In this document: piece by piece, positions 1 to 63,276 of the stretch
How positions within the stretch are numbered: position 1 is the first letter of the stretch
Layout of the letters: the number at the start of each line of letters is the position of its first letter
DNA from: Astropecten irregularis
Taxonomy: Eukaryota; Echinodermata; Asteroidea; Paxillosida; Astropectinidae
DNA: 64,000 nucleotides
Assembly (NCBI GenBank): GCA_963971285.1
Contig: OZ020265.1
Location: 5,620,270 to 5,684,269, forward strand
Reading direction: 5' to 3'
The notes under the pieces: model-generated
Told to the model about the DNA's origin: nothing
Database searches by the model: none
What the model saw: only the letters and a program-made list of their open reading frames with translations
Made by a program: the position numbers and the translations under genes

Positions 1-251
1 CACATCCATAATATACAAGAAAAATCATTTTGAAATTTTTTTATAATATTGTAAGGAAATCAGGGCCTACCGACCATTTGATCATAGCTCGATCTTTTTC
101 AAAAGCAAAATGGGAAATGTAATATTAACATGCCAGAGAAGATGTAAATGAATGGAAAAGATCTTCCGAACACAGGGGGGGGGGTATGTTCAGTAGGTTG
201 AGAAAAACAATATAATGATCGTTTTCTTTGCATTTGTGATTGTCTTGACAG

Positions 252-3200
252 CTGATTGTAGCATTAATGGTAACCCTTGTGCAAGTGGAGGATTTTGTAC
301 ATTAGATCCCACGGCTGCTGCTGGCTTCACCTGTACTTGTACACCTGGATACACAGGGGACACATGCGGCACAGGTGAAAATACATATCAATGATATACA
401 AGAAAAATCAATTGGAAAATGTTTTATAATATTGTAAGGAAATCAGAGCCTACCGACCATTTGATCATAGCAGGATCTTTTTCAAAAGCAAAATGGGAAA
501 TGTGATATTAACATGCCAGAGAAGACGTTCAAGAATGGAAAAGAGCTCCCGAACACAGGGGGAGTGGTTTGTTCAGTGGGTTGAGAAAAATAATATAATG
601 ATCGTTTTCTATTTGTGATTGTCTTGACAGCTGATTGTAGCATTAATGGTAACCCTTGTGCAAGTGGAGGATTTTGTACATTAGATCCCACGGCTGCTGC
701 GGGCTTCACCTGTACTTGTACACCTGGATACACAGGGGAAACGTGCGGCACAGGTGAAAATACACATCCATAATATTCAAGAAAAATCATTCTGAAATTG
801 TTTTAAAATATCGTAAGGAAATCAGGGCCTACCGACCATTTGATCATAGCTGGATCTTTTTCAAAAGCTAAATGGGAAATGTGATATTAACTTGCCAAAG
901 AAGATGTACACGAATGGAAAAGAGCTTCCGAACACAGGGGGGGGGGGGGTGTTCAGTAGGTTGAGAAAACAAATAAAATGATCGTTTTCTATTTGTGATT
1001 GTCTTGACAGCTGATTGTAGCATTAATGGTAACCCTTGTGCAAGTGGAGGATTTTGTACATTAGATCCCACGGCTGCTGCGGGCTTCACCTGTACTTGTA
1101 CACCTGGATACACAGGGGACACATGCGGCACAGGTGAAAATACACATCCATAATATACAAGAAAAATCATTTTGAAATTGTTTTATAATATTGTAAGGAA
1201 ATCAGGGCCTACCGACCATTTGATCATAGCTCGATCTTTTTCAAAAGCAAAATGGGAAATGTAATATTAACATGCCAGAGAAGATGTAAATGAATGGAAA
1301 AGAGCTTCCGAACACAGGGGGGGGGGTATGTTCAGTAGGTTGAGAAAAACAATATAATGATCGTTTTCTTTGCATTTGTGATTGTCTTGACAGCTGATTG
1401 TAGCATTAATGGTAACCCTTGTGCAAGTGGAGGATTTTGTACATTAGATCCCACGGCTGCTGCTGGCTTCACCTGTACTTGTACACCTGGATACACAGGG
1501 GACACATGCGGCACAGGTGAAAATACATATCAATGATATACAAGAAAAATCAATTGGAAAATGTTTTATAATATTGTAAGGAAATCAGAGCCTACCGACC
1601 ATTTGATCATAGCAGGATCTTTTTCAAAAGCAAAATGGGAAATGTGATATTAACATGCCAGAGAAGACGTTCAAGAATGGAAAAGAGCTCCCGAACACAG
1701 GGGGAGTGGTTTGTTCAGTGGGTTGAGAAAAATAATATAATGATCGTTTTCTATTTGTGATTGTCTTGACAGCTGATTGTAGCATTAATGGTAACCCTTG
1801 TGCAAGTGGAGGATTTTGTACATTAGATCCCACGGCTGCTGCGGGCTTCACCTGTACTTGTACACCTGGATACACAGGGGAAACGTGCGGCACAGGTGAA
1901 AATACACATCCATAATATTCAAGAAAAATCATTCTGAAATTGTTTTAAAATATCGTAAGGAAATCAGGGCCTACCGACCATTTGATCATAGCTGGATCTT
2001 TTTCAAAAGCTAAATGGGAAATGTGATATTAACTTGCCAGAGAAGATGTACACGAATGGAAAAGAGCTTCCGAACACAGGGGGGGGGGGGTGTTCAGTAG
2101 GTTGAGAAAACAAATAAAATGATCGTTTTCTATTTGTGATTGTCTTGACAGCTGATTGTAGCATTAATGGTAACCCTTGTGCAAGTGGAGGATTTTGTAC
2201 ATTAGATCCCACGGCTGCTGCGGGCTTCACCTGTACTTGTACACCTGGATACACAGGGGACACATGCGGCACAGGTGAAAATACACATCCATAATATACA
2301 AGAAAAATCATTTTGAAATTTTTTTATAATATTGTAAGGAAATCAGGGCCTACCGACCATTTGATCATAGCTCGATCTTTTTCAAAAGCAAAATGGGAAA
2401 TGTAATATTAACATGCCAGAGAAATGTAATATTAACATGCCAGAGAAGATGTAAATGAATGGAAAAGAGCTTCCGAACACAGGGGGGGGGGGGGGTATGT
2501 TCAGTAGGTTGAGAAAAACAATATAATGATCGTTTTCTTTGCATTTGTGATTGTCTTGACAGCTGATTGTAGCATTAATGGTAACCCTTGTGCAAGTGGA
2601 GGATTTTGTACATTAGATCCCACGGCTGCTGCTGGCTTCACCTGTACTTGTACACCTGGATACACAGGGGACACATGCGGCACAGGTGAAAATACATATC
2701 AATGATATACAAGAAAAATCAATTGGAAAATGTTTTATAATATTGTAAGGAAATCAGAGCCTACCGACCATTTGATCATAGCAGGATCTTTTTCAAAAGC
2801 AAAATGGGAAATGTGATATTAACATGCCAGAGAAGACGTTCAAGAATGGAAAAGAGCTCCCGAACACAGGGGGGAGTGGTTTGTTCAGTGGGTTGAGAAA
2901 AATAATATAATGATCGTTTTCTATTTGTGATTGTCTTGACAGCTGATTGTAGCATTAATGGTAACCCTTGTGCAAGTGGAGGATTTTGTACATTAGATCC
3001 CACGGCTGCTGCGGGCTTCACCTGTACTTGTACACCTGGATACACAGGGGAAACGTGCGGCACAGGTGAAAATACACATCCATAATATTCAAGAAAAATC
3101 ATTCTGAAATTGTTTTAAAATATCGTAAGGAAATCAGGGCCTACCGACCATTTGATCATAGCTGGATCTTTTTCAAAAGCTAAATGGGAAATGTGATATT

Positions 3201-6200
3201 AACTTGCCAGAGAAGATGTACACGAATGGAAAAGAGCTTCCGAACACAGGGGGGGGGGGGGGGGGAGGGGTGTTCAGTAGGTTGAGAAAACAAATAAAAT
3301 GATCGTTTTCTATTTGTGATTGTCTTGACAGCTGATTGTAGCATTAATGGTAACCCTTGTGCAAGTGGAGGATTTTGTACATTAGATCCCACGGCTGCTG
3401 CGGGCTTCACCTGTACTTGTACACCTGGATACACAGGGGACACATGCGGCACAGGTGAAAATACACATCCATAATATACAAGAAAAATCATTTTGAATTT
3501 TTTTTATAATATTGTAAGGAAATCAGGGCCTACCGACCATTTGATCATAGCTCGATCTTTTTCAAAAGCAAAATGGGAAATGTAATATTAACATGCCAGA
3601 GAAGATGTAAATGAATGGAAAAGAGCTTCCGAACACAGGGGGGGGGGGGGGTATGTTCAGTAGGTTGAGAAAAACAATATAATGATCGTTTTCTTTGCAT
3701 TTGTGATTGTCTTGACAGCTGATTGTAGCATTAATGGTAACCCTTGTGCAAGTGGAGGATTTTGTACATTAGATCCCACGGCTGCTGCTGGCTTCACCTG
3801 TACTTGTACACCTGGATACACAGGGGACACATGCGGCACAGGTGAAAATACATATCAATGATATACAAGAAAAATCAATTGGAAAATGTTTTATAATATT
3901 GTAAGGAAATCAGAGCCTACCGACCATTTGATCATAGCAGGATCTTTTTCAAAAGCAAAATGGGAAATGTGATATTAACATGCCAGAGAAGATGTAAATG
4001 AATGGAAAAGAGCTTCCGAACACAGGGGGGGGGGGGGTATGTTCAGTAGGTTGAGAAAAACAATATAATGATCGTTTTCTTTGCATTTGTGATTGTCTTG
4101 ACAGCTGATTGTAGCATTAATGGTAACCCTTGTGCAAGTGGAGGATTTTGTACATTAGATCCCACGGCTGCTGCTGGCTTCACCTGTACTTGTACACCTG
4201 GATACACAGGGGACACATGCGGCACAGGTGAAAATACATATCAATGATATACAAGAAAAATCAATTGGAAAATGTTTTATAATATTGTAAGGAAATCAGA
4301 GCCTACCGACCATTTGATCATAGCAGGATCTTTTTCAAAAGCAAAATGGGAAATGTGATATTAACATGCCAGAGAAGACGTTCAAGAATGGAAAAGAGCT
4401 CCCGAACACAGGGGGAGTGGTTTGTTCAGTGGGTTGAGAAAAATAATATAATGATCGTTTTCTATTTGTGATTGTCTTGACAGCTGATTGTAGCATTAAT
4501 GGTAACCCTTGTGCAAGTGGAGGATTTTGTACATTAGATCCCACGGCTGCTGCGGGCTTCACCTGTACTTGTACACCTGGATACACAGGGGAAACTTGCG
4601 GCACAGGTGAAAATACACATCCATAATATTCAAGAAAAATCATTCTGAAATTGTTTTAAAATATCGTAAGGAAATCAGGGCCTACCGACCATTTGATCAT
4701 AGCTGGATCTTTTTCAAAAGCTAAATGGGAAATGTGATATTAACTTGCCAGAGAAGATGTACACGAATGGAAAAGAGCTTCCGAACACAGGGGGGGGGGG
4801 GGGGGTGTTCAGTAGGTTGAGAAAACAAATATAATGATCGTTTTCTATTTGTGATTGTCTTGACAGCTGATTGTAGCATAAATGGTAACCCTTGTGCAAG
4901 TGGAGGATTTTGTACATTAGATCCCACGGCTGCTGCGGGCTTCACCTGTACTTGTAAACCGGGATACACAGGGGACACATGCGGCACAGGTGAAAATACA
5001 CATCCATAATATTCAAGAAAAATCATTCTGAAATTGTTTTAAAATATCGTAAGGAAATCAGGGCCTACCGACCATTTGATCATAGCTGGATCTTTTTCAA
5101 AAGCTAAATGGGAAATGTGATATTAACTTGCCAGAGAAGATGTACACGAATGGAAAAGAGCTTCCGAACACAGGGGGGGGGGGGGGGTGTTCAGTAGGTT
5201 GAGAAAACAAATAAAATGATCGTTTTCTATTTGTGATTGTCTTGACAGCTGATTGTAGCATTAATGGTAACCCTTGTGCAAGTGGAGGATTTTGTACATT
5301 AGATCTCACGGCTGCTGCGGGCTTCACCTGTACTTGTACACCTGGATACACAGGGGACACATGCGGCACAGGTGAAAATACACATCCATAATATACAAGA
5401 AAAATCATTTTGAATTTTTTTTATAATATTGTAAGGAAATCAGGGCCTACCGACCATTTGATCATAGCTCGATCTTTTTCAAAAGCAAAATGGGAAATGT
5501 AATATTAACATGCCAGAGAAGATGTAAATGAATGGAAAAGAGCTTCCGAACACAGGGGGGGGGGGGTATGTTCAGTAGGTTGAGAAAAACAATATAATGA
5601 TCGTTTTCTTTGCATTTGTGATTGTCTTGACAGCTGATTGTAGCATTAATGGTAACCCTTGTGCAAGTGGAGGATTTTGTACATTAGATCCCACGGCTGC
5701 TGCTGGCTTCACCTGTACTTGTACACCTGGATACACAGGGGACACATGCGGCACAGGTGAAAATACATATCAATGATATACAAGAAAAATCAATTGGAAA
5801 ATGTTTTATAATATTGTAAGGAAATCAGAGCCTACCGACCATTTGATCATAGCAGGATCTTTTTCAAAAGCAAAATGGGAAATGTGATATTAACATGCCA
5901 GAGAAGACGTTCAAGAATGGAAAAGAGCTCCCGAACACAGGGGGAGGGGTTTGTTCAGTGGGTTGAGAAAAATAATATAATGATCGTTTTCTATTTGTGA
6001 TTGTCTTGACAGCTGATTGTAGCATTAATGGTAACCCTTGTGCAAGTGGAGGATTTTGTACATTAGATCCCACGGCTGCTGCGGGCTTCACCTGTACTTG
6101 TACACCTGGATACACAGGGGAAACGTGCGGCACAGGTGAAAATACACATCCATAATATTCAAGAAAAATCATTCTGAAATTGTTTTAAAATATCGTAAGG

Positions 6201-9200
6201 AAATCAGGGCCTACCGACCATTTGATCATAGCTGGATCTTTTTCAAAAGCTAAATGGGAAATGTGATATTAACTTGCCAGAGAAGATGTACACGAATGGA
6301 AAAGAGCTTCCGAACACAGGGGGGGGGGGGGGGGGGTGTTCAGTAGGTTGAGAAAACAAATATAATGATCGTTTTCTATTTGTGATTGTCTTGACAGCTG
6401 ATTGTAGCATAAATGGTAACCCTTGTGCAAGTGGAGGATTTTGTACATTAGATCCCACGGCTGCTGCGGGCTTCACCTGTACTTGTACACCTGGATACAC
6501 AGGGGACACATGCGGCACAGGTGAAAATACACATCCATAATATTCAAGAAAAATCATTCTGAAATTGTTTTAAAATATCGTAAGGAAATCAAGGCCTACC
6601 GACCATTTGATCATAGCTGGATCTTTTTCAAAAGCTAAATGGGAAATGTGATATTAACTTGCCAGAGAAGATGTACACGAATGGAAAAGAGCTTCCGAAC
6701 ACAGGGGGGGGGGGTGTTCAGTAGGTTGAGAAAACAAATAAAATGATCGTTTTCTATTTGTGATTGTCTTGACAGCTGATTGTAGCATTAATGGTAACCC
6801 TTGTGCAAGTGGAGGTTTTTGTACATTAGATCCCACGGCTGCTGCGGGCTTCACCTGTACTTGTACACCTGGATACACAGGGGACACATGCGGCACAGGT
6901 GAAAATACACATCCATAATATACAAGAAAAATCATTTTGAAATTTTTTTATAATATTGTAAGGAAATCAGGGCCTACCGACCATTTGATCATAGCTCGAT
7001 CTTTTTCAAAAGCAAAATGGGAAATGTAATATTAACATGCCAGAGAAGATGTAAATGAATGGAAAAGAGCTTCCGAACACAGGGGGGGGGGGGGGTATGT
7101 TCAGTAGGTTGAGAAAAACAATATAATGATCGTTTTCTTTGCATTTGTGATTGTCTTGACAGCTGATTGTAGCATTAATGGTAACCCTTGTCCAAGTGGA
7201 GGATTTTGTACATTAGATCCCACGGCTGCTGCTGGCTTCACCTGTACTTGTACACCTGGATACACAGGGGACACATGCGGCACAGGTGAAAATACATATC
7301 AATGATATACAAGAAAAATCAATTGGAAAATGTTTTATAATATTGTAAGGAAATCAGAGCCTACCGACCATTTGATCATAGCTGGATCTTTTTCAAAAGC
7401 TAAATGGGAAATGTGATATTAACTTGCCAGAGAAGATGCACACGAATGGAAAAGAGCTTCCAAACACAGGGGGGGGGGGGGTGTTCAGTAGGTTGAGAAA
7501 ACAAATAAAATGATCGTTTTCTATTTGTGATTGTCTTGACAGCTGATTGTAGCATTAATGGTAACCCTTGTGCAAGTGGAGGATTGTGTACATTAGATCC
7601 CACGGCTGCTGCGGGCTTCACCTGTACTTGTACACCTGGATACACAGGGGAAACGTGCGGCACAGGTGAAAATACACATCCATAATATTCAAGAAAAATC
7701 ATTCTGAAATTGTTTTAAAATATCGTAAGGAAATCAAGGCCTACCGACCATTTGATCATAGCTGGATCTTTTTCAAAAGCTAAATGGGAAATGTGATATT
7801 AACTTGCCAGAGAAGATGTACACGAATGGAAAAGAGCTTCCGAACACAGGGGGGGGGGGGGGGGGTGTTCAGTAGGTTGAGAAAACAAATAAAATGATCG
7901 TTTTCTATTTGTGATTGTCTTGACAGCTGATTGTAGCATTAATGGTAACCCTTGTGCAAGTGGAGGATTTTGTACATTAGATCCCACGGCTGCTGCTGGC
8001 TTCACCTGTACTTGTACACCTGGATACACAGGGGACACATGCGGCACAGGTGAAAATACATATTAATGATATACAAGAAAAATCATTTGGAAAATGTTTT
8101 ATAATATTGTAAGGAAATCAGGACCTACCGACCATTTGGTCATAGCAGGATCTTATTCAAAAGCTAAATGGGAAATGTGATATTAACTTGCCAGAGAAGA
8201 TGTACGCGAATGGAAAAGAGCTTCCGAACACAGGGGGGGGGGGTGTTCAGTAGGTTGAGAAAACAAATATAATGATCGTTTTCTATTTGTGATTGTCTTG
8301 ACAGCTGATTGTAGCATTAATGGTAACCCTTGTGCAAGTGGAGGATTTTGTACATTAGATCCCACGGCTGCTGCGGGCTTCACCTGTACTTGTACACCTG
8401 GATACACAGGGGACACATGCGGCACAGGTGAAAATACACATCCATAATATACAAAAAAAATCTTTTTGAAAATGTTTTATAATATTGTAAGGAAATCAGG
8501 GCCTACCGACCATTTGATAATAGCAGGATCTTTTTTCAAAAGCAAAATGGGAAATGTGATATTAACATGCCAGAGAAGATGTACATGAATGGAAAAGAGC
8601 TCCCGAACACAGGGGGAGGGTTATGTTCAGTAGGTTGAGAAAAATAATATAATGATCGTTTTCTTTGTATTTGTGATTGTCTTGACAGCTGATTGTAGCA
8701 TTAATGGTAACCCTTGTGCAAGTGGAGGATTTTGTACATTAGATCCCACGGCTGCTGCTGGCTTCACCTGTACTTGTACACCTGGATACACAGGGGACAC
8801 ATGCGGCACAGGTGAAAATACATATTAATGATATACAAGAAAAATCATTTGGAAAATGTTTTATAATATTGTAAGGAAATCAGGGCCTACCGACCATTTG
8901 ATCATAGCAGGATCTTTTTCAAAAGCTAAATGGGAAATGTGATATTAACTTGCCAGAGAAGACGTTCAAGAATGGAAAAGAGCTCCCGAACACAGGGGGA
9001 GGGGTTTGTTCAGTAGGTTTAGAAAAAAAATATAATGATCGTTTTCTTTGTATTTGTGATTGTCTTGACAGCTGATTGTAGCATTAATGGTAACCCTTGT
9101 GCAAGTGGAGGATTTTGTACATTAGATCCCACGGCTGCTGCGGGCTTCACCTGTACTTGTACACCTGGATACACAGGGGACACATGCGGCACAGGTGAAA

Positions 9201-12200
9201 ATACACATCCATAATATACAAAAAAAATCATTTGGAAATTGTTTTAAAATATCGTAAGGAAATCAGGGCCTACCGACCATTTGATCATAGCTGGATCTTT
9301 TTCAAAAGCTAAATGGGAAATGTGATATTAACTTGCCAGAGAAGATGTACACGAATGGAAAAGAGCCTCCGAACACAGGGGGGGGGGGGGGTGTTCAGTA
9401 GGTTGAGAAAACAAATAAAATGATCGTTTTCTATGTGTGATTGTCTTGACAGCTGATTGTAGCATTAATGGTAACCCTTGTGCAAGTGGAGGATTTTGTA
9501 CATTAGATCCCACGGCTGCTGCGGGCTTCACCTGTACTTGTACACCTGGATACACAGGGGACACATGCGGCACAGGTGAAAATACACATCCATAATATAC
9601 AAGAAAAATCATTTTGAATTTTGTTTATAATATTGTAAGGAAATCAGGGCCTACCGACCATTTGATCATAGCTCGATCTTTTTCAAAAGCAAAATGGGAA
9701 ATGTAATATTAACATGCCAGAGAAGATGTAAATGAATGGAAAAGAGCTTCCGAACACAGGGGGGGGGGGGTATGTTCAGTAGGTTGAGAAAAACAATATA
9801 ATGATCGTTTTCTTTGCATTTGTGATTGTCTTGACAGCTGATTGTAGCATTAATGGTAACCCTTGTGCAAGTGGAGGATTTTGTACATTAGATCCCACGG
9901 CTGCTGCTGGCTTCACCTGTACTTGTACACCTGGATACACAGGGGACACATGCGGCACAGGTGAAAATACATATCAATGATATACAAGAAAAATCAATTG
10001 GAAAATGTTTTATAATATTGTAAGGAAATCAGGGCCTACCGACCATTTGATCATAGCAGGATCTTTTTCAAAAGCAAAATGGGAAATGTGATATTAACAT
10101 GCCAGAGAAGATGTTCAAGAATGGAAAAGAGCTCCCGAACACAGGGGGAGGGGTTTGTTCAGTGGGTTGAGAAAAATAATATAATGATCGTTTTCTATTT
10201 GTGATTGTCTTGACAGCTGATTGTAGCATTAATGGTAACCCTTGTGCAAGTGGAGGATTTTGTACATTAGATCCCACGGCTGCTGCGGGCTTCACCTGTA
10301 CTTGTACACCTGGATACACAGGGGACACGTGCGGCACAGGTGAAAATACACATCCATAATATTCAAGAAAAATCATTCTGAAATTGTTTTAAAATATTGT
10401 AAGGAAATTAGGACCTACCGACCATTTGATCATAGCAGGACCTTTTTCAGAAGCTAAATGGGAAATGTGATATTTACTCGCCAGAGAAGATGTACACGAA
10501 TGGAAAAGAGCTTCCGAACACAGGGGGGGGGGGGGGTGTTCAGTAGGTTGAGAAAACAAATATAATGATCGTTTTCTATTTGTGATTGTCTTGACAGCTG
10601 ATTGTAGCATAAATGGTAACCCTTGTGCAAGTGGAGGATTTTGTACATTAGATCCCACGGCTGCTGCGGGCTTCACCTGTACTTGTACACCTGGATACAC
10701 AGGGGACACATGCGGCACAGGTGAAAATACACATCCATAATATTCAAGAAAAATCATTCTGAAATTGTTTTAAAATATCGTAAGGAAATCAGGGCCTACC
10801 GACCATTTGATCATAGCTGGATCTTTTTCAAAAGCTAAATGGGAAATGTGATATTAACTTGCCAGAGAAGATGTACACGAATGGAAAAGAGCTTCCGAAC
10901 ACAGGGGGGGGGGTGTTCAGTAGGTTGAGAAAACAAATAAAATGATCGTTTTCTATTTGTGATTGTCTTGACAGCTGATTGTAGCATTAATGGTAACCCT
11001 TGTGCAAGTGGAGGATTTTGTACATTAGATCCCACGGCTGCTGCGGGCTTCACCTGTACTTGTACACCTGGATACACAGGGGACACATGCGGCACAGGTG
11101 AAAATACACATCCATAATATACAAGAAAAATCATTTTGAATTTTTTTTATAATATTGTAAGGAAATCAGGGCCTACCGACCATTTGATCATAGCTCGATC
11201 TTTTTCAAAAGCAAAATGGGAAATGTAAAATTAACATGCCAGAGAAGATGTAAATGAATGGAAAAGAGCTTCCGAACACAGGGGGGGGGGTATGTTCAGT
11301 AGGTTGAGAAAAACAATATAATGATCGTTTTCTTTGCATTTGTGATTGTCTTGACAGCTGATTGTAGCATTAATGGTAACCCTTGTGCAAGTGGAGGATT
11401 TTGTACATTAGATCCCACGGCTGCTGCTGGCTTCACCTGTACTTGTACACCTGGATACACAGGGGACACATGCGGCACAGGTGAAAATACATATCAATGA
11501 TATACAAGAAAAATCAATTGGAAAATGTTTTATAATATTGTAAGGAAATCAGAGCCTACCGACCATTTGATCATAGCAGGATCTTTTTCAAAAGCAAAAT
11601 GGGAAATGTGATATTAACATGCCAGAGAAGACGTTCAAGAATGGAAAAGAGCTCCCGAACACAGGGGGAGGGGTTTGTTCAGTGGGTTGAGAAAAATAAT
11701 ATAATGATCGTTTTCTATTTGTGATTGTCTTGACAGCTGATTGTAGCATTAATGGTAACCCTTGTGCAAGTGGAGGATTTTGTACATTAGATCCCACGGC
11801 TGCTGCGGGCTTCACCTGTACTTGTACACCTGGATACACAGGGGAAACGTGCGGCACAGGTGAAAATACATATCCATAATATTCAAGAAAAATCATTCTG
11901 AAATTGTTTTAAAATATCGTAAGGAAATCAGGGCCTACCGACCATTTGATCATAGCTGGATCTTTTTCAAAAGCTAAATGGGAAATGTGATATTAACTTG
12001 CCAGAGAAGATGTACACGAATGGAAAAGAGCTTCCGAACACAGGGGGGGGGGATGTTCAGTAGGTTGAGAAAACAAATATAATGATCGTTTTCTATTTGT
12101 GATTGTCTTGACAGCTGATTGTAGCATAAATGGTAACCCTTGTGCAAGTGGAGGATTTTGTACATTAGATCCCACGGCTGCTGCGGGCTTCACCTGTACT

Positions 12201-21200: not shown

Positions 21201-24200
21201 AGTAGGTTGAGAAAAACAATATAATGATCGTTTTCTTCGCATTTGTGATTGTCTTGACAGCTGATTGTAGCATTAATGGTAACCCTTGTGCAAGTGGAGG
21301 ATTTTGTACATTAGATCCCACGGCTGCTGCTGGCTTCACCTGTACTTGTACACCTGGATACACAGGGGACACATGCGGCACAGGTGAAAATACATATCAA
21401 TGATATACAAGAAAAATCAATTGGAAAATGTTTTATAATATTGTAAGGAAATCAGAGCCTACCGACCATTTGATCATAGCAGGATCTTTTTCAAAAGCAA
21501 AATGGGAAATGTGATATTAACATGCCAGAGAAGACGTTCAAGAATGGAAAAGAGCTCCCGAACACAGGGGGAGTGGTTTGTTCAGTGGGTTGAGAAAAAT
21601 AATATAATGATCGTTTTCTATTTGTGATTGTCTTGACAGCTGATTGTAGCATTAATGGTAACCCTTGCGCAAGTGGAGGATTTTGTACATTAGATCCCAC
21701 GGCTGCTGCGGGCTTCACCTGTACTTGTACACCTGGATACACAGGGGAAACGTGCGGCACAGGTGAAAATACACATCCATAATATTCAAGAAAAATCATT
21801 CTGAAATTGTTTTAAAATATCGTAAGGAAATAAGGGCCTACCGACCATTTGATCATAGCTGGATCTTTTTCAAAAGCTAAATGGGAAATGTGATATTAAC
21901 TTGCCAGAGAAGATGTACACGAATGGAAAAGAGCTTCCGAACACAGGGGGGGGGGGGTGTTCAGTAGGTTGAGAAAACAAATATAATGATCGTTTTCTAT
22001 TTGTGATTGTCTTGACAGCTGATTGTAGCATTAATGGTAACCCTTGTGCAAGTGGAGGATTTTGTACATTAGATCCCACGGCTGCTGATGGCTTCACCTG
22101 TACTTGTACACCTGGATACACAGGGGACACATGCGGCACAGGTGAAAATACATATCAATGATATACAAGAAAAATCAATTGGAAAATGTTTTATAATATT
22201 GTAAGGAAATCAGAGCCTACCGACCATTTGATCATAGCAGGATCTTTTTCAAAAGCTAAATGGGAAATGTGATATTAACTTGCCAGAGAAGATGTACACG
22301 AATGGAAAAGAGCTTCCGAACACAGGGGGGGGGGGGGGGGGGTGTTCAGTAGGTTGAGAAAACAAATAAAATGATCGTTTTCTATTTGTGATTGTCTTAA
22401 CAGCTGATTGTAGCATTAATGGTAACCCTTGTGCAAGTGGAGGATTTTGTACATTAGATCCCACGGCTGCTGCGGGCTTCACCTGTACTTGTACACCTGG
22501 ATACACAGGGGACACATGCGGCACAGGTGAAAATACACATCCATAATATACAAAAAAAATCTTTTTGAAAATGTTTTATAATATTGTAAGGAAATCAGGG
22601 CCTACCGACCATTTGATAATAGCAGGATCTTTTTTCAAAAGCAAAATGGGAAATGTGATATTAACATGCCAGAGAAGATGTACATGAATGGAAAAGAGCT
22701 CCCGAACACAGGGGGAGGGTTATGTTCAGTAGGTTGAGAAAAATAATATAATGATCGTTTTCTTTGTATTTGTGATTGTCTTGACAGCTGATTGTAGCAT
22801 TAATGGTAACCCTTGTGCAAGTGGAGGATTTTGTACATTAGATCCCACGGCTGCTGCGGGCTTCACCTGTACTTGTACACCTGGATACACAGGGGACACA
22901 TGCGGCACAGGTGAAAATACACATCCATAATATACAAAAAAAATCATTTGGAAATTGTTTTAAAATATCGTAAGGAAATCAGGGCCTACCGACCATTTGA
23001 TCATAGCTGGATCTTTTTCAAAAGCTAAATGGGAAATGTGATATTAACTTGCCAGAGAAGATGTACACGAATGGAAAAGAGCCTCCGAACACAGGGGGGG
23101 GGGGTGTTCAGTAGGTTGAGAAAACAAATAAAATAATCGTTTTCTATGTGTGATTGTCTTGACAGCTGATTGTAGCATTAATGGTAACCCTTGTGCAAGT
23201 GGAGGATTTTGTACATTAGATCCCACGGCTGCTGCGGGCTTCACCTGTACTTGTACACCTGGATACACAGGGGACACATGCGGCACAGGTGAAAATACAC
23301 ATCCATAATATACAAGAAAAATCATTTTGAATTTTTTTTATAATATTGTAAGGAAATCAGGGCCTACCGACCATTTGATCATAGCTCGATCTTTTTCAAA
23401 AGCAAAATGGGAAATGTAATATTAACATGCCAGAGAAGATGTAAATGAATGGAAAAGAGCTTCCGAACACAGGGGGGGGGGGTATGTTCAGTAGGTTGAG
23501 AAAAACAATATAATGATCGTTTTCTTTGCATTTGTGATTGTCTTGACAGCTGATTGTAGCATTAATGGTAACCCTTGTGCAAGTGGAGGATTTTGTACAT
23601 TAGATCCCACGGCTGCTGCTGGCTTCACCTGTACTTGTACACCTGGATACACAGGGGACACATGCGGCACAGGTGAAAATACATATCAATGATATACAAG
23701 AAAAATCAATTGGAAAATGTTTTATAATATTGTAAGGAAATCAGGGCCTACCGACCATTTGATCATAGCAGGATCTTTTTCAAAAGCAAAATGGGAAATG
23801 TGATATTAACATGCCAGAGAAGATGTTCAAGAATGGAAAAGAGCTCCCGAACACAGGGGGAGGGGTTTGTTCAGTAGGTTGAGAAAAATAATATAATGAT
23901 CGTTTTCTATTTGTGATTGTCTTGACAGCTGATTGTAGCATTAATGGTAACCCTTGTGCAAGTGGAGGATTTTGTACATTAGATCCCACGGCTGCTGCGG
24001 GCTTCACCTGTACTTGTACACCTGGATACACAGGGGACACGTGCGGCACAGGTGAAAATACACATCCATAATATTCAAGAAAAATCATTCTGAAATTGTT
24101 TTAAAATATTGTAAGGAAATTAGGACCTACCGACCATTTGATCATAGCAGGACCTTTTTCAGAAGCTAAATGGGAAATGTGATATTTACTCGCCAGAGAA

Positions 24201-27200
24201 GATGTACACGAATGGAAAAGAGCTTCCGAACACAGGGGGGGGGGGGGTGTTCAGTAGGTTGAGAAAACAAATATAATGATCGTTTTCTATTTGTGATTGT
24301 CTTGACAGCTGATTGTAGCATAAATGGTAACCCTTGTGCAAGTGGAGGATTTTGTACATTAGATCCCACGGCTGCTGCGGGCTTCACCTGTACTTGTACA
24401 CCTGGATACACAGGGGACACATGCGGCACAGGTGAAAATACACATCCATAATATTCAAGAAAAATCATTCTGAAATTGTTTTAAAATATCGTAAGGAAAT
24501 CAGGGCCTACCGACCATTTGATCATAGCTGGATCTTTTTCAAAAGCTAAATGGGAAATGTGATATTAACTTGCCAGAGAAGATGTACACGAATGGAAAAG
24601 AGCTTCCGAACACAGGGGGGGGGGGGTGTTCAGTAGGTTGAGAAAACAAATAAAATGATCGTTTTCTATTTGTGATTGTCTTGACAGCTGATTGTAGCAT
24701 TAATGGTAACCCTTGTGCAAGTGGAGGATTTTGTACATTAGATCCCACGGCTGCTGCGGGCTTCACCTGTACTTGTACACCTGGATACACAGGGGACACA
24801 TGCGGCACAGGTGAAAATACACATCCATAATATACAAGAAAAATCATTTTGAATTTTTTTTATAATATTGTAAGGAAATCAGGGCCTACCGACCATTTGA
24901 TCATAGCTCGATCTTTTTCAAAAGCAAAATGGGAAATGTAAAATTAACATGCCAGAGAAGATGTAAATGAATGGAAAAGAGCTTCCGAACACAGGGGGGG
25001 GGGGTATGTTCAGTAGGTTGAGAAAAACAATATAATGATCGTTTTCTTTGCATTTGTGATTGTCTTGACAGCTGATTGTAGCATTAATGGTAACCCTTGT
25101 GCAAGTGGAGGATTTTGTACATTAGATCCCACGGCTGCTGCTGGCTTCACCTGTACTTGTACACCTGGATACACAGGGGACACATGCGGCACAGGTGAAA
25201 AAACATATCAATGATATACAAGAAAAATCAATTGGAAAATGTTTTATAATATTGTAAGGAAATCAGAGCCTACCGACCATTTGATCATAGCAGGATCTTT
25301 TTCAAAAGCAAAATGGGAAATGTGATATTAACATGCCAGAGAAGACGTTCAAGAATGGAAAAGAGCTCCCGAACACAGGGGGAGGGGTTTGTTCAGTGGG
25401 TTGAGAAAAATAATATAATGATCGTTTTCTATTTGTGATTGTCTTGACAGCTGATTGTAGCATTAATGGTAACCCTTGTGCAAGTGGAGGATTTTGTACA
25501 TTAGATCCCACGGCTGCTGCTGGCTTCACCTGTACTTGTACACCTGGATACACAGGGGAAACGTGCGGCACAGGTGAAAATACACATCCATAATATTCAA
25601 GAAAAATCATTCTGAAATTGTTTTAAAATATCGTAAGGAAATAAGGGCCTACCGACCATTTGATCATAGCTGGATCTTTTTCAAAAGCTAAATGGGAAAT
25701 GTGATATTAACTTGCCAGAGAAGATGTACACGAATGGAAAAGAGCTTCCGAACACAGGGGGGGGGGGGTGTTCAGTAGGTTGAGAAAACAAATATAATGA
25801 TCGTTTTCTATTTGTGATTGTCTTGACAGCTGATTGTAGCATTAATGGTAACCCTTGTGCAAGTGGAGGATTTTGTACATTAGATCCCACGGCTGCTGAT
25901 GGCTTCACCTGTACTTGTACACCTGGATACACAGGGGACACATGCGGCACAGGTGAAAATACATATCAATGATATACAAGAAAAATCAATTGGAAAATGT
26001 TTTATAATATTGTAAGGAAATCAGAGCCTACCGACCATTTGATCATAGCAGGATCTTTTTCAAAAGCTAAATGGGAAATGTGATATTAACTTGCCAGAGA
26101 AGATGTACACGAATGGAAAAGAGCTTCCGAACACAGGGGGGGGGGTGTTCAGTAGGTTGAGAAAACAAATAAAATGATCGTTTTCTATTTGTGATTGTCT
26201 TAACAGCTGATTGTAGCATTAATGGTAACCCTTGTGCAAGTGGAGGATTTTGTACATTAGATCCCACGGCTGCTGCGGGCTTCACCTGTACTTGTACACC
26301 TGGATACACAGGGGACACATGCGGCACAGGTGAAAATACACATCCATAATATACAAAAAAAATCTTTTTGAAAATGTTTTATAATATTGTAAGGAAATCA
26401 GGGCCTACCGACCATTTGATAATAGCAGGATCTTTTTTCAAAAGCAAAATGGGAAATGTGATATTAACATGCCAGAGAAGATGTACATGAATGGAAAAGA
26501 GCTCCCGAACACAGGGGGAGGGTTATGTTCAGTAGGTTGAGAAAAATAATATAATGATCGTTTTCTTTGTATTTGTGATTGTCTTGACTGCTGATTGTAG
26601 CATTAATGGTAACCCTTGTGCAAGTGGAGGATTTTGTACATTAGATCCCACGGCTGCTGCTGGCTTCACCTGTACTTGTACACCTGGATACACAGGGGAC
26701 ACATGCGGCACAGGTGAAAATACATATTAATGATATACAAGAAAAATCATTTGGAAAATGTTTTATAATATTGTAAGGAAATCAGGGCCTACCGACCATT
26801 TGATCATAGCAGGATCTTTTTCAAAAGCTAAATGGGAAATGTGATATTAACTTGCCAGAGAAGACGTTCAAGAATGGAAAAGAGCTCCCGAACACAGGGG
26901 GAGGGGTTTGTTCAGTAGGTTTAGAAAAAAAATATAATGATCGTTTTCTTTGTATTTGTGATTGTCTTGACAGCTGATTGTAGCATTAATGGTAACCCTT
27001 GTGCAAGTGGAGGATTTTGTACATTAGATCCCACGGCTGCTGCGGGCTTCACCTGTACTTGTACACCTGGATACACAGGGGACACATGCGGCACAGGTGA
27101 AAATACACATCCATAATATACAAAAAAAATCATTTGGAAATTGTTTTAAAATATCGTAAGGAAATCAGGGCCTACCGACCATTTGATCATAGCTGGATCT

Positions 27201-30200
27201 TTTTCAAAAGCTAAATGGGAAATGTGATATTAACTTGCCAGAGAAGATGTACACGAATGGAAAAGAGCCTCCGAACACAGGGGGGGGGGGTGTTCAGTAG
27301 GTTGAGAAAACAAATAAAATAATCGTTTTCTATGTGTGATTGTCTTGACAGCTGATTGTAGCATTAATGGAAACCCTTGTGCAAGTGGAGGATTTTGTAC
27401 ATTAGATCCCACGGCTGCTGCGGGCTTCACCTGTACTTGTACACCTGGATACACAGGGGACACATGCGGCACAGGTGAAAATACACATCCATAATATACA
27501 AGAAAAATCATTTTGAATTTTTTTTATAATATTGTAAGGAAATCAGGGCCTACCGACCATTTGATCATAGCTCGATCTTTTTCAAAAGCAAAATAGGAAA
27601 TGTAATATTAACATGCCAGAGAAGATGTAAATGAATGGAAAAGAGCTTCCGAACACAGGTGGGGGGTATGTTCAGTAGGTTGAGAAAAACAATATAATGA
27701 TCGTTTTCTTTGCATTTGTGATTGTCTTGACAGCTGATTGTAGCATTAATGGTAACCCTTGTGCAAGTGGAGGATTTTGTACATTAGATCCCACGGCTGC
27801 TGCTGGCTTCACCTGTACTTGTACACCTGGATACACAGGGGACACATGCGGCACAGGTGAAAATACATATCAATGATATACAAGAAAAATCAATTGGAAA
27901 ATGTTTTATAATATTGTAAGGAAATCAGGGCCTACCGACCATTTGATCATAGCAGGATCTTTTTCAAAAGCAAAATGGGAAATGTGATATTAACATGCCA
28001 GAGAAGATGTTCAAGAATGGAAAAGAGCTCCCGAACACAGGGGGAGGGGTTTGTTCAGTGGGTTGAGAAAAATAATATAATGATCGTTTTCTATTTGTGA
28101 TTGTCTTGACAGCTGATTGTAGCATTAATGGTAACCCTTGTGCAAGTGGAGGATTTTGTACATTAGATCCCACGGCTGCTGCGGGCTTCACCTGTACTTG
28201 TACACCTGGATACACAGGGGACACATGCGGCACAGGTGAAAATACACATCCATAATATTCAAGAAAAATCATTCTGAAATTGTTTTAAAATATCGTAAGG
28301 AAATCAGGGCCTACCGACCATTTGATCATAGCTGGATCTTTTTCAAAAGCTAAATGGGAAATGTGATATTAACTTGCCAGAGAAGATGTACACGAATGGA
28401 AAAGAGCTTCCGAACACAGGGGGGGGGGGGGGTGTTCAGTAGGTTGAGAAAACAAATAAAATGATCGTTTTCTATTTGTGATTGTCTTGACAGCTGATTG
28501 TAGCATTAATGGTAACCCTTGTGCAAGTGGAGGATTTTGTACATTAGATCCCACGGCTGCTGCGGGCTTCACCTGTACTTGTACACCTGGATACACAGGG
28601 GACACATGCGGCACAGGTGAAAATACACATCCATAATATACAAGAAAAATCATTTTGAATTTTTTTTATAATATTGTAAGGAAATCAGGGCCTACCGACC
28701 ATTTGATCATAGCTCGATCTTTTTCAAAAGCAAAATGGGAAATGTAAAATTAACATGCCAGAGAAGATGTAAATGAATGGAAAAGAGCTTCCGAACACAG
28801 GGGGGGGGGGGGTATGTTCAGTAGGTTGAGAAAAACAATATAATGATCGTTTTCTTTGCATTTGTGATTGTCTTGACAGCTGATTGTAGCATTAATGGTA
28901 ACCCTTGTGCAAGTGGAGGATTTTGTACATTAGATCCCACGGCTGCTGCTGGCTTCACCTGTACTTGTACACCTGGATACACAGGGGACACATGCGGCAC
29001 AGGTGAAAATACATATCAATGATATACAAGAAAAATCAATTGGAAAATGTTTTATAATATTGTAAGGAAATCAGAGCCTACCGACCATTTGATCATAGCA
29101 GGATCTTTTTCAAAAGCAAAATGGGAAATGTGATATTAACATGCCAGAGAAGACGTTCAAGAATGGAAAAGAGCTCCCGAACACAGGGGGAGGGGTTTGT
29201 TCAGTGGGTTGAGAAAAATAATATAATGATCGTTTTCTATTTGTGATTGTCTTGACAGCTGATTGTAGCATTAATGGTAACCCTTGTGCAAGTGGAGGAT
29301 TTTGTACATTAGATCCCACGGCTGCTGCGGGCTTCACCTGTACTTGTACACCTGGATACACAGGGGAAACGTGCGGCACAGGTGAAAATACACATCCATA
29401 ATATTCAAGAAAAATCATTCTGAAATTGTTTTAAAATATCGTAAGGAAATCAGGGCCTACCGACCATTTGATCATAGCTGGATCTTTTTCAAAAGCTAAA
29501 TGGGAAATGTGATATTAACTTGCCAGAGAAGATGTACACGAATGGAAAAGAGCTTCCGAACACAGGGGGGGGGGGGTGTTCAGTAGGTTGAGAAAACAAA
29601 TATAATGATCGTTTTCTATTTGTGATTGTCTTGACAGCTGATTGTAGCATAAATGGTAACCCTTGTGCAAGTGGAGGATTTTGTACATTAGATCCCACGG
29701 CTGCTGCGGGCTTCACATGTACTTGTACACATGGATACACAGGGGACACATGCGGCACAGGTGAAAATACGCATCCATAATATTCAAGAAAAATCATTCT
29801 GAAATTGTTTTAAAATATCGTAAGGAAATCAAGGCCTACCGACCATTTGATCATAGCTGGATCTTTTTCAAAAGCTAAATGGGAAATGTGATATTAACTT
29901 GCCAGAGAAGATGTACACGAATGGAAAAGAGCTTCCGAACACAGGGGGGGGGGTGTTCAGTAGGTTGAGAAAACAAATAAAATGATCGTTTTCTATTTGT
30001 GATTGTCTTGACAGCTGATTGTAGCATTAATGGTAACCCTTGTGCAAGTGGAGGATTTTGTACATTAGATCCCACGGCTGCTGCGGGCTTCACCTGTACT
30101 TGTACACCTGGATACACAGGGGACACATGCGGCACAGGTGAAAATACACATCCATAATATACAAGAAAAATCATTTTGAAATTTTTTTATAATATTGTAA

Positions 30201-33200
30201 GGAAATCAGGGCCTACCGACCATTTGATCATAGCTCGATCTTTTTCAAAAGCAAAATGGGAAATGTAATATTAACATGCCAGAGAAGATGTAAATGAATG
30301 GAAAAGAGCTTCCGAACACAGGGGGGGGGGGGTATGTTCAGTAGGTTGAGAAAAACAATATAATGATCGTTTTCTTTGCATTTGTGATTGTCTTGACAGC
30401 TGATTGTAGCATTAATGGTAACCCTTGTGCAAGTGGAGGATTTTGTACATTAGATCCCACGGCTGCTGCTGGCTTCACCTGTACTTGTACACCTGGATAC
30501 ACAGGGGACACATGCGGCACAGGTGAAAATACATATCAATGATATACAAGAAAAATCAATTGGAAAATGTTTTATAATATTGTAAGGAAATCAGAGCCTA
30601 CCGACCATTTGATCATAGCAGGATCTTTTTCAAAAGCAAAATGGGAAATGTGATATTAACATGCCAGAGAAGACGTTCAAGAATGGAAAAGAGCTCCCGA
30701 ACACAGGGGGAGTGGTTTGTTCAGTGGGTTGAGAAAAATAATATAATGATCGTTTTCTATTTGTGATTGTCTTGACAGCTGATTGTAGCATTAATGGTAA
30801 CCCTTGTGCAAGTGGAGGATTTTGTACATTAGATCCCACGGCTGCTGCGGGCTTCACCTGTACTTGTACACCTGGATACACAGGGGAAACGTGCGGCACA
30901 GGTGAAAATACACATCCATAATATTCAAGAAAAATCATTCTGAAATTGTTTTAAAATATCGTAAGGAAATAAGGGCCTACCGACCATTTGATCATAGCTG
31001 GATCTTTTTCAAAAGCTAAATGGGAAATGTGATATTAACTTGCCAGAGAAGATGTACACGAATGGAAAAGAGCTTCCGAACACAGGGGGGGGGGGTGTTC
31101 AGTAGGTTGAGAAAACAAATATAATGATCGTTTTCTATTTGTGATTGTCTTGACAGCTGATTGTAGCATTAATGGTAACCCTTGTGCAAGTGGAGGATTT
31201 TGTACATTAGATCCCACGGCTGCTGATGGCTTCACCTGTACTTGTACACCTGGATACACAGGGGACACATGCGGCACAGGTGAAAATACACATCCATAAT
31301 ATTCAAGAAAAATCATTCTGAAATTGTTTTAAAATATCGTAAGGAAATCAGGGCCTACCGACCATTTGATCATAGCAGGATCTTTTTCAAAAGCTAAATG
31401 GGAAATGTGATATTAACTTGCCAAAGAAGATGTACAAGAATGGAAAAGAGCTCCCGAACACAGGGGGGAGGGGTTTGTTCAGTAGGTTTAGAAAAAAAAT
31501 ATAATGATCGTTTTCTTTGTATTTGTGATTGTCTTGACAGCTGATTGTAGCATTAATGGTAACCCTTGTGCAAGTGGAGGATTTTGTACATTAGATCCCA
31601 CGGCTGCTGCGGGCTTCACCTGTACTTGTACACCTGGATACACAGGGGACACATGCGGCACAGGTGAAAATACACATCCATAATATACAAAAAAAACTTT
31701 TTGAAAATGTTTTATAATATTGTAAGGAAATCAGGGCCTACCGACCATTTGATAATAGCAGGATCTTTTTTCAAAAGCAAAATGGGAAATGTGATATTAA
31801 CATGCCAGAGAAGATGTACATGAATGGAAAAGAGCTCCCGAACACAGGGGGGGGGGGGGGGGGGGGGTTATGTTCAGTAGGTTGAGAAAAATAATATAAT
31901 GATCGTTTTCTTGGCTTTTTCGCGGAAGCGAAAAGCCTTTATTTTTGTTCTGTTTTTTTTTTCTTCTTCTTCTTCTTCTTCTTCTTCCATTTTGATTTCC
32001 CATAGACTTTGCACAGGGGCGTTCTACCCATCAAATTGGTCAGTTTTAAATAATCGATTTTAACCAAACTTGGTCTGGAGGAAGTCCATATAGAGTAGTT
32101 GTATGCCGAAACTTTTCAACATCATGACGTCATCAGGTGTCATGTGACAAGTGATTTGAATTTAATAATCAAAATCTTTAAAAATCCACAAAAAATCAAC
32201 GGTTTGAGATATTAAGTTGATTCTTTCACCAAAAGTGATTGTTAGGCAGGGTCTTTCTTTGTGACACATTGCTTGACCTCTGTGACCTCTACTTCCGGTT
32301 AAACAGGAAGTAGGTCCTCATTTAAAAGTGGTAAGAGCTAGGATCATGATTCTTTCACCAAAAGTGAATGTTAGGCAATGTCTTTCTTTGTGATACATTG
32401 GTTGACCCCTGTGACCTCTACTTCCGGTCAAACAGGAAGTAGCTCCTCATTTAAAAGTGGTAAGAGCTAGGATCATCATTCTTTCACCAAATATCAATGT
32501 TAGGCAAGATCTTTCTTGGTGACACATTGCTTGACCTTTCTGACCTCTACTTCCGGTCAAACCGGAAGTAGCTCCTCATTAAAAAGTGGTAAGAGCTAGG
32601 ATCATGATTCTTTCACCAAAAGTCCATGTTAAGCAAGGTCTTTCTTTGAGACACATAGCTTGACCTCTGTGACCTCTTCTTCCTGCCAAACAGGAAGTAG
32701 CTCCTCATTAGAAAGTGGTAAGAGCTAGGATAATGATTTTTTTTTCCATTTGTCCCATTGAGGGATCCCTTTCTTTGTATAGCATATTATATATCTATAT
32801 ATCAATTTAAAATACCATATGCGGAAAAGCCTTATGCGCTGTTTCTAACAGCCATAAACTCTAGTTTGTATTTGTGATTGTCTTGACAGCTGATTGTAGC
32901 ATTAATGGTAACCCTTGTGCAAGTGGAGGATTTTGTACATTAGATCCCACGGCTGCTGCTGGCTTCACCTGTACTTGTACACCTGGATACACAGGGGACA
33001 CATGCGGCACAGGTGAAAATACATATTAATGATATACAAGAAAAATCATTTGGAAAATGTTTTATAATATTGTAAGGAAATCAGGGCCTACCGACCATTT
33101 GATCATAGCAGGATCTTTTTCAAAAGCTAAATGGGAAATGTGATATTAACTTGCCAAAGAAGATGTACAAGAATGGAAAAGAGCTCCCGAACACAGGGGG

Positions 33201-36200
33201 AGGGGTTTGTTCAGTAGGTTTAGAAAAAAAATATAATGATCGTTTTCTTTGTATTTGTGATTGTCTTGACAGCTGATTGTAGCATTAATGGTAACCCTTG
33301 TGCAAGTGGAGGATTTTGTACATTAGATCCCACGGCTGCTGCGGGCTTCACCTGTACTTGTACACCTGGATACACAGGGGACACATGCGGCACAGGTGAA
33401 AATACATATCAATGATATACAAGAAAAATCATTTTGAAAATGTTTAATAATATTGTAAGGAAATCAGGGCCTACCGACCATTTGATCATAGAAGGATCTA
33501 TTTCAAAAGCAAAATGGGAAATGTAATATTAACATGCCAGAGAAGATGTACATGAATGGAAAAGAGCTCCCGAACACAGGGGGAGGGTTATGTTCAGTAG
33601 GTTGAGAAAAACAATATAATGATCGTTTTCTATTTGTGATTGTCTTGACAGCTGATTGTAGCAATAATGGTAACCCTTGTGCAAGTGGAGGATTTTGTAC
33701 ATTAGATCCCACGGCTGCTGCTGGCTTCACCTGTACTTGTACACCTGGATACACAGGGGACACATGCGGCACAGGTGAAAATACACATGCATAACATTCA
33801 AGAAAAATCATTCTGAAATTGTTTTAAAATATTGTAAGGAAATCAGGGCCTACCGACCATTTGATCATAGCAGGATCTTTTTCCAAAGGAAAAATGGGAA
33901 ATGTGGTATTAACATGCCAGAGAAGATGTACATGAATGGAAAAGCGCTTCCGAACACAGGGGGAGGGGTATGTTCAGTAGGTTGAGAAAAAATAATATAA
34001 TGTACTGTACCTGTACTTGTACACCGGGATACACATGGGATCAAAAATACGGCCGACCCTGTTTTTTTTCTGACCGTTTCTCATTGTTGTATTCCATGGT
34101 CTTACACTAGCGCGCGTGGAACTTTGGAGTCAAACTGATCGAACATGCAGTGGATTGGACAAGCCCTATATTACACAGTAAAAAAAAACATCCCGACCTA
34201 CCTACCCTATTTTTGGGGGACTGTTAACCAACATAACAATTGTTTAGGCCTAATCCGTGATATGGCCATGCCATACACATCAATGGAAAAGAATTTCCAA
34301 AAATGTGGGTAGAGTGCTGAGTGAGTGAAAGATATAATGGTCGTTTTGTTTGTATATTCATTTCCTAACGAAACCTAAGCAACACGCACCCGCTACAGCT
34401 ACTATGGCCTCGAATTTTGGCTTTGTAACACCATATCTTTAAAACGGCCCATGTAATAAATTTGCTTCTTTCAGCATAAAGAAGGCCCATTATTCTTCTT
34501 CAGATTGGTATCTTAATATAATCTTGTTGTGAAAAAAACCCCGTAATTTTCATTGTATTTTTATGTTCCGATTCTCTTGACAGCTGATGTTTGTACTCCC
34601 AACCCTTGTTTGAACGGAGGAAAATGTACAAAAGAAGGCATGCTGTACACATGTTTTAATTGTGATGACGGATACACAGGGACCAACTGTGAAACAGGTG
34701 ACTGCACATGAAAAGCTTACGACCCTAATAAAATCCGGTTATGAGGTTTCGCTCATAAGGGATTACATTTTCATTATTCCTCACTTGGTCACATTTATTT
34801 ATGTTTTTTTTTTTTTTTTTTTTTTTCATTTATTTATTTATTAGATAAACAACATAAGACACCTGTCAATTACAGGTATCATGAGGAAAAATTGTAGATG
34901 CACTACACATCGCAAAATTTACAAAATGCAGCCCTTATAGCCCCTTTCACACCGTGCCTCCGTAGAGTTGTAAATGTTCGTAGTGCGACGGCGTATGGTT
35001 GCGTACCCTGGGCAGAGGCACCGCGTACCTACCAGAATAATAAAACTAGAGGTTGTGTCTGTTAAAAACAGAACACATGGCTTTTCCGCATAATGATATA
35101 AAATATTTCTCCAATTAAAACACATCACTTATTTTGTTTGATTGAGACAGATTTTTTAAAAGTGACCGTATCTAAATGTAGAAAACTTGAGTTAAACAAA
35201 TCACTTTTGGAGTTTTGAAGTGTGCCCCTTTCATCTTACGTCAGGTGTCTTGGCCACATAAAGTGGTTTTATAAAACTATGTGTGACTGTGTGCCATATA
35301 CATGTGTAGATGCAAACGGGTAAACACTGCTGTCTGACAACAAAGCACCCCTGGCATGGCCTAACGAATAACAGTCATCCGAGCAGACAGTTTTGAATGG
35401 AGCCCTCTTTTGATTAAAACAAGCAACTATGTACTTTGATTAATCAAAAGAGGGCGCCATTCAAAACCGTTTGCTCGGATTACCGATTCATGCATTACTG
35501 AAAACGGTCTAAGTAGATTGTTGCGCGTGCGTGGTTGTCTTGTCAAAAACAGCATTTACGCTGTAGGCAGCTATGATAAGGAAAAGAAGGAGAACACGGC
35601 ATATATAAAGCAGGCAAACAACCTTTCGCGCGCCTGGCATGAATGGTGTTTCAATCGTATGTTTCATTTTATGACCAATATTTTCACGTACAGAGCTCTG
35701 TACAAGTCATTGGGCTAGCGTGAGAAAGATTTAATAAATCATAAACATTCAAGTGATGACGCCGTCGTGACGTAACTTCATAATAACGATCCGCAACTTC
35801 CATTTCCCCAACCTACCAATTTTCGAGGCGATCGGACGTTTCTACTGTGTGTTATAAAAAATGCAATTTTTATGACGTCATGATGACATCACCGATTTTT
35901 TCTCTATGCAGTGTTCATCTATGGTGTATGCTTAAGAATTATCAAAAAGAAATTCAAAGAAATCTTGTTTTGTTTACTTGATATCGTTAAAAGAACTTTA
36001 ATAACCCAAAATTTCAATAAATCATAAAACAATCAGAGAATGACGTCATGATGACGTCATTGCAATTTTTGGATATAACACTTCCCGACTTAGATACATA
36101 CCAAGTTTCAACTCAATCAAACTTAAGGTTCGTTCATAATTGATGTCTGAAGTTTGCCCCTTTAAGACACTGTCACGTGACACCTGATGACGCCATGATG

Positions 36201-59156: not shown

Positions 59157-59306
59157 TCAGCGCCAGTGGTTGTTATTGCGCCCTCTTGCGTCCTTGACCT
59201 CTGACCCGTGTGGGTTGTCTTTACCGTTGTCCTATTTACGGACGGTTGCGTATTTTACGATCTCATTAAAGTTACTCAGTTATCTTGACGAACTGTTCTA
59301 CAGTTG
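59157..59306 (+). repeat. 5' LTR
   Basis: About 94-96% similar by eye to 63277-63425. Shared blocks include ctctgacccgtgtgggt, gtctttaccgttgtcctattta and gttactcagttatcttgacg. Confidence 0.85.
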
Positions 59307-59524
59307 TGGTTTATGTGTGTCAGGAGTTTCCTCTCCCTCCTTACTGGCGTGGTGGCAGCGTTCTGAAACGGATCCTCGCCTTGGAAAGTGTGGAAAACCG
59401 CTACAAAACCCCGAGTTATCGGCGCACAATAAGCCGTATCACATACACGGTGAGTGACTGTACAGTTGTATACAAACAATTGAAGGAATTGTTCGTCATT
59501 TATTCCTTATTTTCTGAGTTCACC

Positions 59525-63055: not shown

Positions 63056-63276
63056 CTTTATCCTGGCCTCTGACTTTTCCAGTTCCGTTGTTTACTTTTT
63101 TGTCATGCGCTTCGCTTGTTTTTTTGTGCCAGAGTGTTGCCTGTGATTGGCATTTTTTTTTTCGGCCCTGTTATTTCACTGTTTTCATGCCTCTTTTTGA
63201 ATTTTCAAGCTGTTCATGATCAATGTTTTTTCCACTTATTTTCAAGCTTTTCCCTTTTAAGAAAGGAAAAAAGAGG

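Follow-up and report, generated by a model that had tools for sequence, protein, structure and literature searches.

Can a run of near-identical coding exons grow, shrink and be homogenised like a satellite while the protein it encodes stays in frame? This question is raised by a locus of the sea star Astropecten irregularis (assembly GCA_963971285.1, contig OZ020265.1), at which exons for epidermal growth factor (EGF) modules follow one another in a long tandem array. We analysed a stretch of 64,000 nucleotides (positions 5,620,270 to 5,684,269 of the forward strand), hereafter the window, to which all coordinates below refer. We consider, with a probability of roughly three in four, that the locus represents the 3' part of a gene of animal type whose product is a giant EGF protein, extracellular and probably tethered to the membrane, and that the repeat unit of ~379 bp (exon plus intron, the intron occupying unit positions 124-379) expands, contracts and is homogenised by repeated unequal crossing-over.

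The array and its irregularities were delineated as follows:

252..33774, plus strand: EGF exon array, 86 exons of 123 nt with their introns and phase 1 borders (sliding ungapped match, frame check, Pfam)
1..251, plus strand: intron copy truncated by the left window edge
26586..26590, plus strand: the sole acceptor without AG (GACTG), ahead of the exon at 26591
31913..32864, ends approximate, plus strand: insertion in a single array intron, read by eye

The sliding ungapped match places the first exon copy at 252-374 and the last at 33652-33774, every copy agreeing at 119 or more of its 123 bases. All 86 exons are in phase 1 at both ends, only one frame is open, and the joined exons (86 x 41 = 3526) contain no stop in 3525 full codons. 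The donor is GTGAAAA in 86 of 86 exons and the acceptor is GACAG in 82, AACAG in three and GACTG in one; the counterpart unit lying 25 units before the AG-less one retains its AG. The sequence-only reading of 86 tandem 123-nt exons with symmetric phase 1 borders over ~33.8 kb is confirmed, and its expectation that whole 41-residue modules can be gained or lost without harm to the frame is supported. Since the window starts inside an intron copy, the array extends further left, as had also been proposed. The introns span 253-288 nt in 84 of 85 cases; the remaining one reaches 1226 nt because of the insertion, which contains a 129-bp tandem repeat and parts similar to 37053-37289 and 35043-35092 on the other strand.

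Each 41-residue module carries six cysteines (86/86), and the exons fall into 17 versions at the DNA level and 9 at the protein level, the commonest protein version being found in 61 of the 86 modules. The module was identified as EGF by PF00008 (68.1 bits against a cut-off of 21.5, E 7.2e-19, three stretches on three modules), and its relatives among solved structures include Delta-like 1 and Notch. The calcium-binding EGF profile PF07645 was not reached by the array modules (10.2 bits, cut-off 27). The consensus for extracellular O-linked N-acetylglucosamine (O-GlcNAc) addition by EOGT, C5xxGx(T/S)GxxC6 (PMC3650022), is found in 86 of 86 modules. Neither the O-fucose nor the O-glucose motif occurs in any of the 86. 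The visible array encodes 336 kDa of EGF modules. With an EGF module measuring roughly 3 nm, the predicted product would include a long stalk, uniformly O-GlcNAc-bearing and with a length in the region of a quarter-micrometre, for which a function in a barrier, in adhesion or in a gamete coat is possible.

We compared the 84 alignable units, omitting the insertion-bearing unit and the last exon, and found a mean difference of 4.7% (95.3% alike). The introns differ by 6.3% and the exons by 1.4% in mean pairwise comparison, so that the earlier description of introns as nearly as uniform as exons was too strong. The exon differences amount to 0.11%, 0.46% and 3.7% at codon positions 1, 2 and 3, respectively. 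Using the rate and spectrum of 233 intron sites, from which the splice borders and a G-run of variable length (~8-21 bases, at about unit position 306-318) were excluded, we expected 8.9 distinct silent changes and observed 9, whereas 8 distinct amino-acid changes were observed against 28.3 expected, a ~3.5-fold depletion (pN/pS, the ratio of amino-acid to silent variation, 0.17). On these figures the array looks coding: as silent sites vary like the intron and amino-acid sites are depleted, homogenisation ignores exon borders and translation of the module has mattered. Homogenisation therefore covers the entire ~379-bp unit, with protein-level selection added on top; the sequence-only reading, which had invoked a process beyond selection on the protein, is upheld on this point by the silent changes standing at the intron level. 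A search for a conserved intron element was negative: the least variable 20-base stretch of the mid-intron, from unit position 198, is not below chance (P 0.36).

The units are not arranged at random. Clustering at 4.5% yields three main types, and three or four types in all are arranged as ABC, ABBC and longer strings: the array starts ABCABCABC with a 3-unit period and continues with ABBC (4-unit period) and longer blocks. Steps of the kind A-B, B-C or C-A make up 58 of 81 against 27 expected, a count attained in none of 20000 shuffles, and the A-B-C-A order accounts for 44 of 60 steps when units 38-58 are left out and for 23 of 29 within the first 30 units. Across units 1-82, 25 ordered runs of at least 3 units recur at no less than 99.4%; when the order of the units was shuffled 200 times, such runs averaged 1.5 and never exceeded 6. 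Two features stand out:

6013..22403, plus strand: units 16-36 and units 38-58, identical order of 21 units at an offset of 22 units
14028..14406, plus strand: unit 37, recombinant (type C switching to type A), located between these near-identical blocks

Aligned unit by unit, the two blocks differ by one substitution in 7983 bp and by 46 gap bases, all within one intronic G-run; when units 19-36 and 41-58 were aligned as whole blocks in MAFFT, register was lost and many false differences appeared. By our own count, the length of the G-run differs in 15 of 16 pairs with an uninterrupted run and in 0 of 5 with an interrupted one, which is what either slippage or homopolymer read error would do. 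Adjacent units are 94.5% alike on average and the lag-22 block 99.99% over 21 units, the signature of a higher-order repeat of the kind seen in alpha satellite. The doubled block comprises 22 units, 8.4 kb and 902 residues. This nested order, together with the downstream end of the gene described below, is an addition to the earlier observation.

Individual units also bear marks of exchange. Two parents explain 14 of 84 units, unit 37 among them, better than one (gain of 4 mismatches or more), with 7 distinct breakpoints that all lie at unit positions 151-275, inside the intron. In the four-gamete test, 321 of 1176 informative-site pairs fail. At its right end the array is worn:

33775..34040, plus strand: one further intron copy, then a 32-bp exon scrap (34009-34040)

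Beyond the scrap lies an exon that is EGF-like but diverged, its border phase matching that of the array. Such an edge would be the expected look of an array homogenised by unequal exchange. We looked for a gradient from centre to edge and rejected it: units 84 and 85 are 95.1% and 94.7% similar to the rest, within a range of 94.6-96.2% in 84 units, and wear is seen only beyond the intact units. Repeated unequal crossing-over is the best explanation of the nested repeats, the doubled block and the recombinant units, and marks of unequal exchange are visible in the array, namely ordered recurrent blocks, recombinant units and four-gamete failures.

Downstream of the array, ten further exons with GT-AG borders were traced on the plus strand, F to J being open in one frame:

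34584..34697, plus strand: exon A, diverged EGF-like with six Cys (PF00008 18.0 bits, short of the 21.5 cut-off)
39752..39853, plus strand: exon B, six-cysteine module, no profile match above cut-off
40068..40205, plus strand: exon C, six-cysteine module, no profile match above cut-off
40327..40439, plus strand: exon D, in which the SEA match begins
40729..40935, plus strand: exon E, SEA match with G-S-V-V; internal frame break with TGA at 40888-40890 as assembled
41928..41966, plus strand: exon F, 39 nt, Ser/Thr-rich
42083..42121, plus strand: exon G, 39 nt, Ser/Thr-rich
42979..43017, plus strand: exon H, 39 nt, Ser/Thr-rich
43809..44089, plus strand: exon I, hydrophobic segment, then Arg-Arg-Arg and a tail (identified by eye, without a membrane predictor)
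44234..44314, plus strand: exon J, last part of the tail, with a TAG in the frame shared by exons F-J

Exons D and E together match SEA (PF01390) at 27.0 bits with an X at the frame break, a borderline score (cut-off 26.4) that covers positions 3-76 of 106 only; the part before the break scores 26.3 bits by itself. Exon E includes G-S-V-V, which we take to be a SEA cleavage-type motif. Comparison of this part with solved structures returned no SEA match, and one match at chance level to a lipolytic enzyme (E 0.5). In the incoming frame, exon E runs into the TGA downstream of a CCAATCCAAT tandem at 40840, and exons F-J require the other frame. Adding the piece after the frameshift to the search left the match at or before position 76, and the frameshift is therefore deduced from the frames of exons D-J and not from homology. 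Owing to this switch, the assembly encodes the array and part of the SEA domain but not the membrane end; the frameshift could be erroneous, specific to a haplotype, or a genuine loss. The proposal of a cell-surface protein is accordingly borne out in part, by the hydrophobic segment and tail downstream, and is weakened by a SEA-exon frameshift that puts both out of frame. A transmembrane mucin, which would have a large Pro/Thr/Ser domain next to SEA, was considered and set aside: what is visible of the gene, whose 5' end is outside the window, has no more than three Ser/Thr-rich exons of 13 residues each. The intron between exons A and B contains a 147-bp tandem repeat (36040-37086, 7 copies, 96% matches).

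In the mechanism that we propose, all array exons would be spliced into a single mRNA, and the product would be a stalk of near-identical EGF modules, after which come a SEA-like domain, a membrane segment preceded by a short Ser/Thr linker, and finally a tail. Misaligned units exchanged at matching intron or exon points, presumably mostly within introns, would yield a whole number of 41-residue modules with the frame intact, so that the array could jump by whole modules without breaking the protein, 22 units amounting to 902 residues. The same exchanges would spread unit variants and create multi-unit duplications, giving rise to a new period. If the modules are interchangeable, a single lost splice site or a single radical change should be tolerated. 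Tentatively, and at somewhat less than even odds, we suggest a satellite-like coding gene in which single exchanges shift the protein by up to ~900 residues and alleles in the population differ by hundreds to thousands of residues, the modules themselves staying nearly constant.

Several points weigh against this interpretation. The array is known here from one genomic sequence alone, the gene 5' end and signal peptide are not within the window, and the frameshift in the SEA exon leaves the membrane end out of frame as assembled. The exon holds just 5 of the 49 informative sites, so exon breakpoints could escape detection. Where two parents fit less strongly (gain of 2 mismatches), the breaks are at 113-147, spanning the exon end, and the parent units for the two-parent fits were hand-picked; in view of the few exon sites and the weaker breaks, we do not propose that exchange avoids exons. 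The intact units show no centre-to-edge gradient, and some of the marks would also be produced by gene conversion that involves no crossing-over. Finally, 7 of 13 rare exon changes (at most 4 copies) alter an amino acid, no clear departure from neutrality (P 0.066), and recent selection on the modules could be weak. Such weak depletion is expected if one module of many is cheap to alter, or if selection has eased lately.

Which other accounts would fit the same sequence? A real array whose copy number is an assembly artefact, especially through false duplication of the second 22-unit block, would explain why the two blocks are separated by a single substitution and why their gap bases all fall in one intronic G-run, a place prone to read error, and the caution voiced in the sequence-only reading was justified chiefly for this block. 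We nonetheless regard such an artefact as unlikely: beyond that substitution, 15 of 21 unit pairs have G-runs of unequal length in the two blocks, the intervening unit 37 is recombinant and not of one known type, many smaller nested repeats stand at 99.4-99.9% too, and the alternating unit types provide landmarks for an assembler. Also improbable, slightly more so than the artefact, is a decaying allele or pseudogene, a former membrane-protein array now free to expand. The frameshift and TGA within the SEA exon, the loss of one acceptor in 86 and the lack of clear depletion among the rare changes would all suit it; amino-acid changes are, however, depleted overall (8 against 28.3 expected), and the ten downstream exons retain GT-AG, with F-J open in one frame. 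The absence of stops from the array codons argues only weakly in the same direction, because no more than ~1.7 distinct stop changes would be expected under neutrality.

The uniformity could alternatively stem from gene conversion between units without net crossing-over, the expansion being one old event, and this process too would yield recombinant units and four-gamete failures. Ordered blocks of up to 21 units at 99.99% need block duplication, however, and short conversion tracts would blur the order of units instead of copying it, so we hold this account for rather improbable, a little below the pseudogene. Least probable, and in our judgement very doubtful, is an intronic satellite-like array whose exons are mostly skipped from an ordinary-sized protein: its higher-order arrangement resembles that of satellites, one acceptor lacks AG and only genomic DNA informs us of the array here, but the frame, the splice borders and the amino-acid constraint have been maintained, and the donor is invariant in all 86 exons. 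Repeated unequal crossing-over in a translated array thus remains the reading that we prefer.

The rest of the window contributed few features. Downstream of the gene, a tandem repeat of ~116 bp occupies 46655-47181, where a 228-bp period scores higher. A broken Gypsy-type retroelement with integrase zinc-binding, RNase H and reverse transcriptase matches lies on the minus strand at 57107-58832, in a stretch of ~50% G+C. Plus-strand frames that match an aspartyl protease lie between the two copies of a 146-bp direct repeat (95.9%; 59161-59306 and 63280-63425), and 59161-63425 is possibly a second retroelement. No Rfam family reached threshold in the window, and ARAGORN detected no tRNA in it under the bacterial code.

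The 86 internal replicates of this gene separate two forces that are usually blurred, as silent and intron sites track each other and amino-acid sites are constrained. The locus also offers a coding-gene test bed for the building of higher-order repeats by unequal crossing-over, a question asked mostly of non-coding satellites, and makes the extent of length variation in an extracellular protein testable. Gene models and copy numbers at such loci require long reads.

We sought relatives of the array in sequence collections and in the literature. A 33-base exon stretch had no exact match in viral contigs (viral_contigs), and searches for encoded relatives gave 40 pattern matches in prokaryote genomes (genome_contigs) and 3 in viral_contigs, none of them confirmed; these misses say little because the two collections hold prokaryote genomes and viral contigs. 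Among the literature matches listed, there was no account of the present array, nor of an EGF-exon gene with nested higher-order repeats. Exon and intron are repeated together here, in frame and with homogenised introns, as in coding arrays of the LPA KIV-2 kind. LPA likewise holds tandem exon-plus-intron units with subtypes distinguished by silent changes, and differs in its 5.6 kb unit of two exons, its kringle domain and its 1 to >40 copies; per-allele copy-number variation is known for LPA, against one sequence for the present array, and a nested ABC/ABBC order is not described in the parts of that source consulted (PMC6314250). In Schistosoma mansoni SmPoMuc, an exon and its flanking introns are tandemly repeated under concerted evolution, the intronic part being >94% identical and the unit containing purine tracts, and unequal crossing-over is thought probable; the exon is 27 bp, the unit ~1 kb, the genomic copies at most 20, and the repeat is of mucin type and not a folded domain (PMC2576457).

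Homogenised introns between repeated exons, in some genes of two alternating types, are described for Argiope MaSp2; the authors of that study were aware of no further eukaryotic gene in which homogenised introns of two types alternate (PMC9779670). MaSp2 encodes silk repeats and has two types, whereas the present array encodes folded EGF and has three or four types in nested blocks. The arrays of Coccidioides SOWgp and mammalian tenascin-X are much smaller than the present one and their domains are mostly other than EGF. In both, according to second-hand accounts, repeated exons and introns evolve in concert, and EGF repeats are also homogenised within tenascin genes (PMC2576457, PMC9779670, PMC2267704). 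Drosophila Dumpy is comparable as a giant protein with >300 EGF modules, one region in concerted evolution and a role as Eogt substrate, but its EGF modules alternate with DPY and its near-identical PIGSFEAST repeats are non-EGF (PMC2930355, PMC3650022). The present array is pure EGF, with one exon per module and introns between; a Dumpy-type protein was rejected, as there are no EGF-DPY-EGF triads and the 41-residue modules are directly consecutive. Halocynthia HrVC70 and HrVC120 share extracellular tandem EGF repeats, one of which was gained in a sister species, and differ in having 12-13 repeats and a ZP domain (PMC9265791). We therefore file the array as a variant of the known coding exon-plus-intron arrays under concerted evolution, rather than as a relative of mucins, Dumpy or Notch. 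The type of process is known; the scale and order of the array are unusual, and what is new over the known arrays is that a folded EGF module is repeated 86 times or more, in three to four types of unit and with higher-order blocks that are nested.

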